Position numbers and translations under genes: made by a program. From positions 1-34,440 of the forward strand of contig CATOPA010000005.1 in NCBI GenBank assembly GCA_951801965.1: a DNA stretch of 34,440 nt. The letters are read 5' to 3'. The stretch comes from an uncultured Erysipelotrichaceae bacterium (GTDB lineage: Bacteria; Bacillota_I; Bacilli_A; Erysipelotrichales; Coprobacillaceae). The notes beneath the pieces are model-generated. The model was not told the origin of the DNA. It saw only the letters and a program-made list of their open reading frames with translations, and ran no database searches. This document shows positions 4,214 through 8,820 of this stretch, piece after piece (position 1 is the first letter of the stretch; every line of letters begins with the position of its first letter).

Positions 4214-4228
4214 CAAATTCTAGTTTAT
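4214..4228 (-). repeat. Island upstream element, variant copy (AAACTAGAATTTGTA)
   Basis: On the minus strand ATAAACTAGAATTTGTAAGGAGG overlaps the stop of the DUF5131 gene and runs into the ribosome site of the GNAT gene. The related ATAAATTAGAATTTGTAGGAGG is at about 2728-2749 before DUF3784. Confidence 0.5.
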
Positions 4229-4941
4229 CTTTTACCTTTAAAATCAATATTTGCCATTTTTGCTTGTTTACATAAATCTTTTGTTTGTAATTTATATTGT
4301 TTGCCATCTTTTATAAAATAAGTCCCACATTGCCTAAATTCAAAATCAATATTTTTTCTTATACATTGTTCTCTAATATCTAATACCCAATTATAATCTA
4401 ATGGTCTTGCATTATAATCTGATTCTCCTCCTACTACAACTAATTCTATATTATCAAGATATTTCTCTATATCAATTTTTTCAATTAAAGGTTGCGCGGT
4501 AATACATTTATGTTTTATTGGTAAATCTTTGAATATAGATAATTTATAATCAGCATTTTTTTGATTTTCTATCGTGCAGCATACTACAACATTGTCATAT
4601 CCAATATTCCAGTCGTCTGGAATACATTTCATAAATCTATCAATTCTTTTTGTCAAAAATAAAAAAGTACAGTCGCTTCTTTCCTTTATCATCTGCCAAC
4701 ATTCTTTTCTCCACTCATCTGCTTCTTCAATTAGAAAATCTGTTGAAAAACACAGATATACTATTCCAGATTTCATTTTATAGTTTCCATTTTTCAATTT
4801 TTCTATTGGCTTATTGAAGTCTTTTGTTTTTACTATTTTATTTGTATCTACATTTCTTTTTGAATCGCCTTTATGAATGTAGCAATGTAAACAACCGTCA
4901 CTACATTTTTTACAACCTCGCCAAGCATTCCACATTGCCAT
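4225..4941 (-). CDS. DUF5131 family protein (phage Gp37/Gp68-like)
   Basis: 238 aa, start at ATG 4941 with GGTGG seven bases upstream. The N-terminus WNAWRGCKKCSDGCLHCYIHK has a dense CxxC-x3-CxxC cluster followed by Tyr, the signature of the Gp37/Gp68 family. This cluster looks like a radical-SAM-type or zinc site. Other family blocks are present: FLTKRIDRFMKCIPDDW, VVVCCTIENQKNADYK and VVVGGESDYNARPLDYNWV, with FRQCGTYF near the end. The last Cys and the GGES loop are typical of the family. Its biochemical activity is not established. The ASCH gene directly upstream ends 12 bases before this start, so the two are translated from one message. ASCH and DUF5131 genes are often partners, which hints at RNA or nucleotide modification. 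Confidence 0.85.
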   Translation of the reverse strand: MAMWNAWRGCKKCSDGCLHCYIHKGDSKRNVDTNKIVKTKDFNKPIEKLKNGNYKMKSGIVYLCFSTDFLIEEADEWRKECWQMIKERSDCTFLFLTKRIDRFMKCIPDDWNIGYDNVVVCCTIENQKNADYKLSIFKDLPIKHKCITAQPLIEKIDIEKYLDNIELVVVGGESDYNARPLDYNWVLDIREQCIRKNIDFEFRQCGTYFIKDGKQYKLQTKDLCKQAKMANIDFKGKR

Positions 4942-7131: not shown

Positions 7132-7160
7132 TTGACAATTTTATGATATTTTTATAAAAT
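7132..7160 (+). promoter_or_regulatory. Promoter of the ECF S-component/kinase operon
   Basis: TTGACA, 17 bases, TAAAAT. The predicted start of RNA is about 7166, so the leader before the ECF gene is about 85 bases and includes the repeats and terminator described next. Confidence 0.7.
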
Positions 7161-7169
7161 TATCAGTGT

Positions 7170-7235
7170 TAACCACGAAGGTTATTTATCACCATGAAGG
7201 TGTTTGAAAAAAACATTTTTATGGTGTTTTTATTT
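7170..7235 (+). promoter_or_regulatory. Leader attenuator: tandem ACC-N5-GGT repeat plus 16-bp terminator
   Basis: Directly after the promoter comes TAACC-ACGAA-GGTTA (7170-7184) and 19 bases later CACC-ATGAA-GGTG, a near repeat of ACCAYGAAGGT. The second copy is also the 5' arm of a long hairpin: CACCATGAAGGTGTTT (7190-7205) pairs with AAACATTTTTATGGTG (7211-7226) over 16 bp with three G-U pairs, and is followed by TTTTTATTTT. The local CACC/GGTG hairpin and the terminator are mutually exclusive, which is the layout of a ligand-sensing attenuator. Alternatively the two ACC-N5-GGT half-palindromes, two helical turns apart, are a repressor operator. No known riboswitch class fits well. Confidence 0.65.
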
Positions 7236-7250
7236 TATGGGGGAAATTAT

Positions 7251-7781
7251 ATGAAAAATTCAAAAACATACAAAATAACTTTATCAGCACTTTTTTTAGC
7301 ATTAGGTATTGTTATGCCTTTTTTCACAGCACAAATTCCTTCTATTGGAAGTCAATTATTGCCTATGCATATACCAGTTTTATTATGTGGATTTGTTTTA
7401 GGTGGACCATATGGTGCTATCATTGGTTTTATAACACCACTACTTAGAAGTGCACTTTTTTCTATGCCACCAATGTTTCCTACAGCTATATGTATGGCGT
7501 TTGAACTTGCTGTTTATGGATTTATGAGTGGTTATTTATATAGACATCTTCAAAAAACAACAATGAATGTATACTTATCTCTTATTACTGCGATGATATG
7601 TGGACGTGTTGTATGGGGAATTGTCAGTGTCATTCTATTTAGCATGCAAAATCAAGCCTTTTCTTTATCAATGTTTATTGCAGGAGCATTTGCTAATGCA
7701 ATGATAGGAATTGTTTTACAAATCATTATTATTCCTCTTTGTATTATGGCTTTAGAAAGGGCTCATTTGATATATGAATAA
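7251..7781 (+). CDS. ECF transporter S component (substrate-binding membrane subunit)
   Basis: 176 aa from ATG 7251, which has GGGGGA seven bases upstream. The track start at 7194 lies inside the leader terminator and has no ribosome site. Six hydrophobic segments are seen. The first is TLSALFLALGIVMPFF. The next block GSQLLPMHIPVLLCGFVLGGPYGAIIGFITPLL and the later MAFELAVYGFMSGYLY are characteristic of ECF S components, which capture a vitamin or similar small molecule and dock with shared EcfA/A'/T subunits. Those subunits are not in this window, so this is a group II orphan S component. The substrate cannot be read from sequence. The kinase gene overlapping its end suggests the imported compound is phosphorylated. 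Leader control fits a vitamin or nucleoside-like ligand. Confidence 0.85.
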   Translation: MKNSKTYKITLSALFLALGIVMPFFTAQIPSIGSQLLPMHIPVLLCGFVLGGPYGAIIGFITPLLRSALFSMPPMFPTAICMAFELAVYGFMSGYLYRHLQKTTMNVYLSLITAMICGRVVWGIVSVILFSMQNQAFSLSMFIAGAFANAMIGIVLQIIIIPLCIMALERAHLIYE

Positions 7782-8820
7782 TCCTCTCTGGAGTAAGTAT
7801 TTTCAAGAATACCCTTTTTCAACCATACAAGATTTCATCAAATATTTATATCAATCAACTCTTGGATCTGCGCATTTTATCACAGATCCTTCAGAAAATT
7901 TTGAGGCTTTTATCAATGAATATCATTCTATTGATCATGATGACCAACATGTTTTATATGAACCTCTCAACGAAGATTTTGGACGTATTCATCTAGAAGC
8001 ATTAAATGAACAACATCTTAAAATAATACATCAATGGATTTTAAAAAGTGTGTCAGTCACTTCATCAAAAGATTCTTTGATACAATGTTTTAACAAAGTA
8101 GAAAAAGGCATTTTAGAAGGATGGATTCCTTTTTCACTTGAATCATGGCAAACAGAAATAAAAAATTATCAACAAAACGGATGTCCTGCTGTTTCACATA
8201 GTCAGATTTTTAAACAACACTATCATCCACATTATCGTATTATAAAAAAGGAATATATACCTTTAATGCATATCATGCAACAAATTGATGAATTACCTCC
8301 TTATAGTATCATTGCTATTGAAGGACAAAGTGGTTCTGGAAAAAGTAGTCTCGCTAATATGTTACATGAAATTTATAACTATCCAATCATTCATATGGAT
8401 GACTTTTTCTTACAAAAGCATCAAAGAACATTAGAAAGACTCAATGAAGTTGGTGGGAATATAGATTATGAACGTTTTTATCAAGAAGTGATTACTCCAA
8501 TAAATCAACATCAATCATTTGATTATTCCATTTTTGATTGTCAATCAATGTCTATACAAGGGCAAAGACATATACATTTTGATTCTCAAATTATTGTAGA
8601 AGGAAGCTATAGCTTACATCCATTTTTTCAAGACTATGCATCTTTTTCTATTTTCTTATCATTGCCTTTTGAATTACAAAAGCAAAGAATAAAAAAACGA
8701 AATGGTGACAAAATGTTAGAAAGATTTATTCATGAATGGATTCCTAAAGAAAATCAATATTTTCAATATTTTGATATAGAAAAAAAAGCTGATATGATCA
8801 TAAAAAATGATTCCCTTTAA
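7774..8820 (+). CDS. P-loop kinase of the uridine kinase/phosphoribulokinase fold with an unknown N-terminal domain
   Basis: 348 aa, starting eight bases before the ECF stop, so tightly coupled. The C-terminal half holds IIAIEGQSGSGKSSLA (P-loop at residues 184-192), then YPIIHMDDFFLQ, the Asp-rich stretch found in uridine and pantothenate kinases, and IIVEGSYSLHPFF plus the lid KQRIKKRNG. The N-terminal 170 residues (WSKYFQEYP, LGSAHFITDP, HPHYRIIKKEY) form a separate domain I do not recognise. Fusion of this domain to a small-molecule kinase and coupling to an S component suggest an uptake-and-trapping pair. The phosphate acceptor is unknown; a nucleoside, a vitamin or a sugar are all possible. 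Confidence 0.8.
   Translation: MNNPLWSKYFQEYPFSTIQDFIKYLYQSTLGSAHFITDPSENFEAFINEYHSIDHDDQHVLYEPLNEDFGRIHLEALNEQHLKIIHQWILKSVSVTSSKDSLIQCFNKVEKGILEGWIPFSLESWQTEIKNYQQNGCPAVSHSQIFKQHYHPHYRIIKKEYIPLMHIMQQIDELPPYSIIAIEGQSGSGKSSLANMLHEIYNYPIIHMDDFFLQKHQRTLERLNEVGGNIDYERFYQEVITPINQHQSFDYSIFDCQSMSIQGQRHIHFDSQIIVEGSYSLHPFFQDYASFSIFLSLPFELQKQRIKKRNGDKMLERFIHEWIPKENQYFQYFDIEKKADMIIKNDSL

Follow-up and report, generated by a model that had tools for sequence, protein, structure and literature searches.

A probable RNA transcription attenuator with tandem A(N)GAA hairpins before an ECF S-component gene, and DUF3842 as its candidate partner

How is transcription of the ECF transporter S-component gene at position 7251 controlled, and does the leader of 80–90 nt between its promoter and its start codon act as RNA or as DNA? 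The question arose in a stretch of 34,440 nucleotides (the window), one contig of the 2.0-Mb genome G000, for which a sequence-only reading had proposed an attenuator or an operator. Our analysis makes it very probable that the leader is a real, cis-acting RNA transcription attenuator belonging to a new RNA family, so that of the two earlier proposals the attenuator is the one borne out, by conservation, covariation and an exclusive terminator. The features concerned are as follows.

7132..7160, + strand: sigma-70 type promoter, TTGACA(7132)-17-TAAAAT(7160), 11 of 12 consensus bases
7170..7184, + strand: hairpin 1, UAACC-ACGAA-GGUUA, 5 bp, loop ACGAA; covariation in 13 leaders
7190..7202, + strand: hairpin 2 (putative antiterminator), CACC-AUGAA-GGUG, 4 bp, loop AUGAA; conserved in related leaders
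7190..7236, + strand: predicted intrinsic terminator, a 16-bp hairpin (7190–7226) and a U-rich tail (7227–7236)
7239..7243, + strand: ribosome binding site GGGGG, assigned from sequence; ATG at 7251
7251..7781, + strand: gene 1, ECF transporter S component, 176 aa, PF12822
7774..8820, + strand: gene 2, 348-aa protein with a C-terminal uridine-kinase-like P-loop domain, conserved beside the S component

The promoter had been called clear, and this description holds; transcription is expected to start at about 7165–7168, both the start and the promoter strength being read from the sequence. Within the leader, ACCACGAAGGT (7172–7182) and ACCATGAAGGT (7191–7201) are spaced 19 bases apart, as had been noted. 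The small ACC-N5-GGT hairpins ascribed to them are present but slightly longer, with 5 bp (UAACC/GGUUA) in hairpin 1 and 4 bp (CACC/GGUG) in hairpin 2. Two matches to ACCNNGAAGGT were observed against 0.05 expected, and two matches were reached in 1 of 100 shuffles. Nowhere else in the window is there a tandem pair of A(N)GAA hairpins. The second copy also forms the 5' arm of the 16-bp hairpin at 7190–7226, which is directly followed by TTTTTATTTT and ends before the ribosome binding site. Hairpin 2 and the terminator share 7190–7202, and the two folds are mutually exclusive, in agreement with the earlier reading. The folding energies were –3.4 kcal/mol for hairpin 2 and –18.4 kcal/mol for the 16-bp terminator, which should therefore win unaided; the leader as a whole had a folding z-score of –3.4. 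Judged by folding and conservation, the predicted arrangement is that of an intrinsic-terminator attenuator, with an exclusive antiterminator/terminator pair 5' of the gene.

The comparison drew on relatives of the S component in 98 related genomes and in named genome contigs. Related leaders shared one plan, with two or three hairpins, the last of which overlaps the 5' arm of a terminator. The hairpins had stems of 4–8 bp that differed between species and near-invariant loops of 4–5 nt, consisting of A, any base or none, and GAA, usually with C-G closure; the spacers between hairpins ranged from 0 to >40 nt, and the distance from the promoter also varied widely. The same layout was found before related S-component genes in both Erysipelotrichales and Lachnospirales, the latter being the order of the Lachnospiraceae MAG G651 (for example L213, L221, L234, L243 and L245). 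MAFFT could not co-align tetraloop and pentaloop copies, and the covariation analysis thus rests on 13 S leaders aligned without structure, all but one with a pentaloop. In these, 98.5% of the pairs of hairpin 1 were kept and 4 of its 5 pairs had changed on both sides, so that the compensatory changes in homologues, whose absence the sequence-only reading had named as a refutation, were found. Over both hairpins, two-sided changes were counted in 26 cells, compared to 7.1 in shuffles (0/500), and controls with slid partners gave ≤4 such cells. The terminator arm was likewise conserved across related leaders. A tandem hairpin pair occurred in 1 of 920 shuffled leaders.

Two covariance models were also run. 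The model R1 found little outside its training set in 316 genomes, and R2, run on 80 genomes, returned three real sites and missed the known G734 site, making it too weak for counting. The covariance matches L240, L243 and L245 each lie before an S gene in a DUF3842-carrying genome. As a separate observation, the 5' end of the leader in the window's own family (L004–L009), ACATGA...AAGC, can pair with GCTTTTTTCATGT at the terminator U-run and might form an extra antiterminator helix around both hairpins; this pairing is absent in the window.

The element is not confined to S-component genes. It was found before cbiM (nickel/cobalt uptake) in lar operons (L119, L197 and L200), with variants before cbiM at L111, L112, L117, L120 and L122, before larE at L125 (with a terminator) and L222, before larB at L192, before a FecCD-type permease gene at L211, and before the gene for DUF3842 itself at L125, L130 and L134. 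DUF3842 (PF12953) is the neighbour of about 140 aa seen at many element-bearing loci. Twelve lar loci from genomes lacking DUF3842 contained no tandem hairpins. The element thereby ties an ECF S component and a kinase to genes for nickel/cobalt uptake and for nickel-pincer cofactor synthesis. At L115, L117, L124, L130 and others we also saw long-spacer promoters that hold an inverted repeat (TTGACTTAAAGTnnACTTTAG...TATAAT) and resemble MerR-family operators; the genes that follow them are DUF3842, larE or aldo-keto reductase genes.

The distribution of the element followed that of DUF3842. All 14 other relatives with the element in the S leader carried DUF3842, which was absent in 28 of the 31 relatives whose S leader lacked it. 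In the three exceptions (G005, G013 and G021), the S homologues are all distant, and A(N)GAA hairpins stand before DUF3842 or cbiM instead. An automatic test scored tandem hairpins in 10 of 17 S leaders from genomes with DUF3842 and in 1 of 29 from genomes without it (p = 4e-5), and at the genome level the element was scored in 19 of 28 and 1 of 36 genomes, respectively (p = 1.3e-8), both p values being optimistic because related genomes are not independent. By eye, the element was recognized in four further leaders from DUF3842-carrying genomes (L005, L006, L043 and L049). The genome-level criterion was a single hairpin of ≥5 bp before an S, cbiM, larB, larE, larC or DUF3842 gene, and several DUF3842-carrying genomes scored as misses show shorter-stemmed variants. 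The same tandem-hairpin test against LarC gave p = 1.0; LarC does not track the element, and the idea that the element marks lar genes was therefore rejected.

Similar co-occurrence was seen further afield. Among the Clostridia MAGs fetched, all five with the element have DUF3842 and the single one without it has none. In Lachnospirales, DUF3842 was present in 63 of 196 genomes, and 7 of 35 DUF3842 loci had tandem hairpins within 1.5 kb by strict criteria, compared to 0 of 10 whole-set shuffles; two of the seven (L207 and L208) hold elements already known from L038 and L032. ECF S components were the commonest DUF3842 neighbours in this order (11 of 51 scanned proteins; 4 were LarC). That the element occurs almost exclusively in DUF3842-carrying genomes across gut Firmicutes makes DUF3842 its likely partner. 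The sole exception is the genome of the window, G000, which carries the element and in which no DUF3842 was found (92.5% complete, 197 contigs), nor any relic within the window. This may reflect an assembly gap or a recent loss, or may be evidence for a riboswitch.

We compared the element with known RNA classes. Apart from one tRNA elsewhere, the whole window gave no match to Rfam models at gathering scores, and the element in ten loci, including the window leader, gave none at E values up to 1. Like the element, the TPP, FMN, THF, preQ1 and cobalamin riboswitches stand before an ECF S-component gene and come with a terminator, but no Rfam model matches the element, which agrees with the earlier statement that the leader does not fit these classes; known Rfam riboswitches and leaders were rejected on this ground. 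The guanidine-II (mini-ykkC) riboswitch consists of two small hairpins with near-identical ACGR tetraloops that contain the expression platform. Tandem small hairpins with near-identical loops are common to both, whereas the loops of the element are A(N)GAA, closed by C-G and with the second base variable or absent, in place of ACGR, and its genes are S components, cbiM and lar rather than guanidine genes.

The closest likeness in architecture is to the targets of the ANTAR proteins EutV, NasR and AmiR. These have two hairpins joined by a short linker, with hexaloops whose first base is A and whose fourth is G. The second hairpin shares sequence with the 5' arm of an intrinsic terminator, and read-through is thought to ensue once both hairpins are bound (PMC3369931). 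Two small hairpins with conserved loop bases, a short linker and terminator overlap are found in the element as well, but its loops are ANGAA or AGAA, of 4–5 nt, instead of A1/G4 hexaloops. Among relatives, an ANTAR protein (PF03861) was missing from 11 of 15 element-bearing genomes, G000 included, and present in G002, G009, G079 and G095. Regulation by ANTAR was rejected on genome content and loop size. By the tests applied, the element belongs to no known class and, as far as sequence can tell, is a previously undescribed RNA switch, a regulatory RNA that is conserved across Erysipelotrichales and Lachnospirales and has no Rfam entry.

What might read the hairpins? The AlphaFold model of DUF3842, a modest one (pLDDT 76, five sequences), is Rossmann-like, and a fold search with it returned only generic Rossmann-like nucleotide-binding folds. 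A sequence search for a relative of known structure found none, the protein shows no sign of a known RNA-binding domain, and our literature search found no paper naming DUF3842. The motifs DGxGGxxG, GTN, ATGEN, GPxG and GE are strongly conserved over 59 copies, which suggests a nucleotide-type ligand. On the basis of the model, DUF3842 could be an RNA-binding sensor or a pathway enzyme. It is the best candidate for the factor, since its gains and losses match those of the element from genus to genus and since the element is found at its own gene and at neighbouring genes. If DUF3842 were instead an enzyme in the pathway under control, the co-occurrence would arise as well.

The mechanism that we favour would run as follows. 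By default, the terminator would overrun hairpin 2 and transcription would stop before the S-component and kinase genes. In the active state, a factor would grip the A(N)GAA loops of both hairpins at once and keep hairpin 2 closed as an antiterminator, allowing RNA polymerase to read through. We infer three steps: binding turns the genes on, the factor is a protein, and this protein is DUF3842, which is small and Rossmann-like and probably acts as a sensor of a nucleotide-type ligand. We lean slightly towards this combination of default termination and read-through by a factor on the twin loops, with DUF3842 as the best candidate. Whether DUF3842 itself binds the twin hairpins directly we regard as evenly balanced. 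Tentatively, we propose it as a ligand-sensing, RNA-binding antiterminator of a new class that is not related to ANTAR and that regulates S/kinase, cbiM and lar genes in gut Firmicutes by way of the twin hairpins. It would be a first functional hypothesis for DUF3842 and, if true, a second protein family would independently use a dual-hairpin antiterminator.

Two alternatives give the twin hairpins no such role. As a DNA operator, it would offer its ACC-N5-GGT pairs to a repressor, and the presence of two 11-bp near-repeats near a promoter suits this idea. An operator would have conserved arms and a promoter spacing fixed at the DNA level; here the arms compensate while the A(N)GAA centre is conserved, the opposite of an operator, and both promoter distance and copy spacing vary widely. 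Compensating arms around a conserved centre indicate an RNA element, and we consider the operator half of the earlier proposal highly improbable. An ordinary constitutive terminator, or a leader-peptide attenuator in which the ATG in the loop of hairpin 2 opens a frame into the gene, is in our estimate extremely improbable. The terminator is strong, and this ATG, at 7194, shares its reading frame with the S gene, but it has no ribosome site upstream and is not conserved, the loops elsewhere being ACGAA, AAGAA, AGGAA and AGAA; moreover, either version would leave hairpin 1 functionless, yet hairpin 1 covaries.

The other two accept the twin-hairpin attenuator and differ on what binds it. In a tandem-hairpin riboswitch, the A(N)GAA loops would bind a small molecule and DUF3842 would act in the same pathway, as enzyme or carrier, a role that its Rossmann-like fold would permit; possibly the two loops would pair with each other, by analogy with the guanidine-II riboswitch. 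The element is very compact, with at least two copies of one hairpin and a near-invariant loop, and G000 carries it although no DUF3842 was found there. Such short hairpins and small loops would, however, offer a selective pocket little space, and ligand binding would turn the gene ON, which is unusual for an uptake gene. The lack of an Rfam match and the variable spacers speak against it too, and we regard a riboswitch as unlikely. The sequence-only reading had found the layout riboswitch-like, which may hold, but the nearest architecture is protein-driven (ANTAR/EutV) and the element tracks DUF3842. It is distinctly improbable, in our view, that another RNA-binding antiterminator, unrecognized or remotely ANTAR-like, uses the hairpins and that DUF3842 is merely a member of its regulon. 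This would account for G000 as well, and the architecture equals that of EutV/NasR dual-hairpin antitermination (PMC3369931), but most element-bearing genomes lack ANTAR, and any such protein would have to share the gain-and-loss pattern of DUF3842.

The transporter had been called vitamin-type; it is an ECF S component, but 'vitamin' found no confirmation, and the element also precedes cbiM and lar genes. Its score with the folT-family model TIGR04518 was 33.5 bits against a cut-off of 60, which is too low for assignment to the FolT type. The kinase gene starts a few bases before the S-component gene ends. The N-terminal ~170 residues of its product (window 7774–8290) form a separate family, which, tested in L213, had no Pfam or NCBIfam match; an AF2 model of the kinase protein without an alignment reached a pLDDT of 37. 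The sharing of the element with cbiM and lar genes, together with an epimerase in L081, hints at nickel or pyridinium-nucleotide metabolism. Lar_N above cut-off and the hexonate-epimerase family were absent from nearly all S-bearing relatives, G000 included. With LarA-type enzymes missing to this extent, a general role of the S component and kinase in nickel-pincer cofactor salvage is unsupported.

Several minor observations concern these gene neighbourhoods. At L081:90-1367, a LarA homologue, a putative nickel-pincer-dependent hexonate epimerase (NF052594), lies directly upstream of the S/kinase operon, and LarA-like C-termini immediately precede the S gene in L083, L086, L087 and L091 as well; LarA/S/kinase neighbourhoods of the L081 type occur in genomes without the hairpin leader. 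Operons of LarB, LarC and LarE are common in the genomes of L170–L180 and L181–L204, although few of these genomes have a LarA-type enzyme; what uses the cofactor is thus a question that they pose. The N-terminal family of gene 2 occurs as a stand-alone gene beside S components in L213 (2569–3066) and apparently in L031. A DUF5131 protein (PF07505) of radical-SAM type is encoded at 4225–4941 on the – strand of the window. In L096–L102 the S component lies inside a longer reading frame of ~385–600 aa, with a methyltransferase domain fused to it in L097, a possible hint to the substrate pathway.
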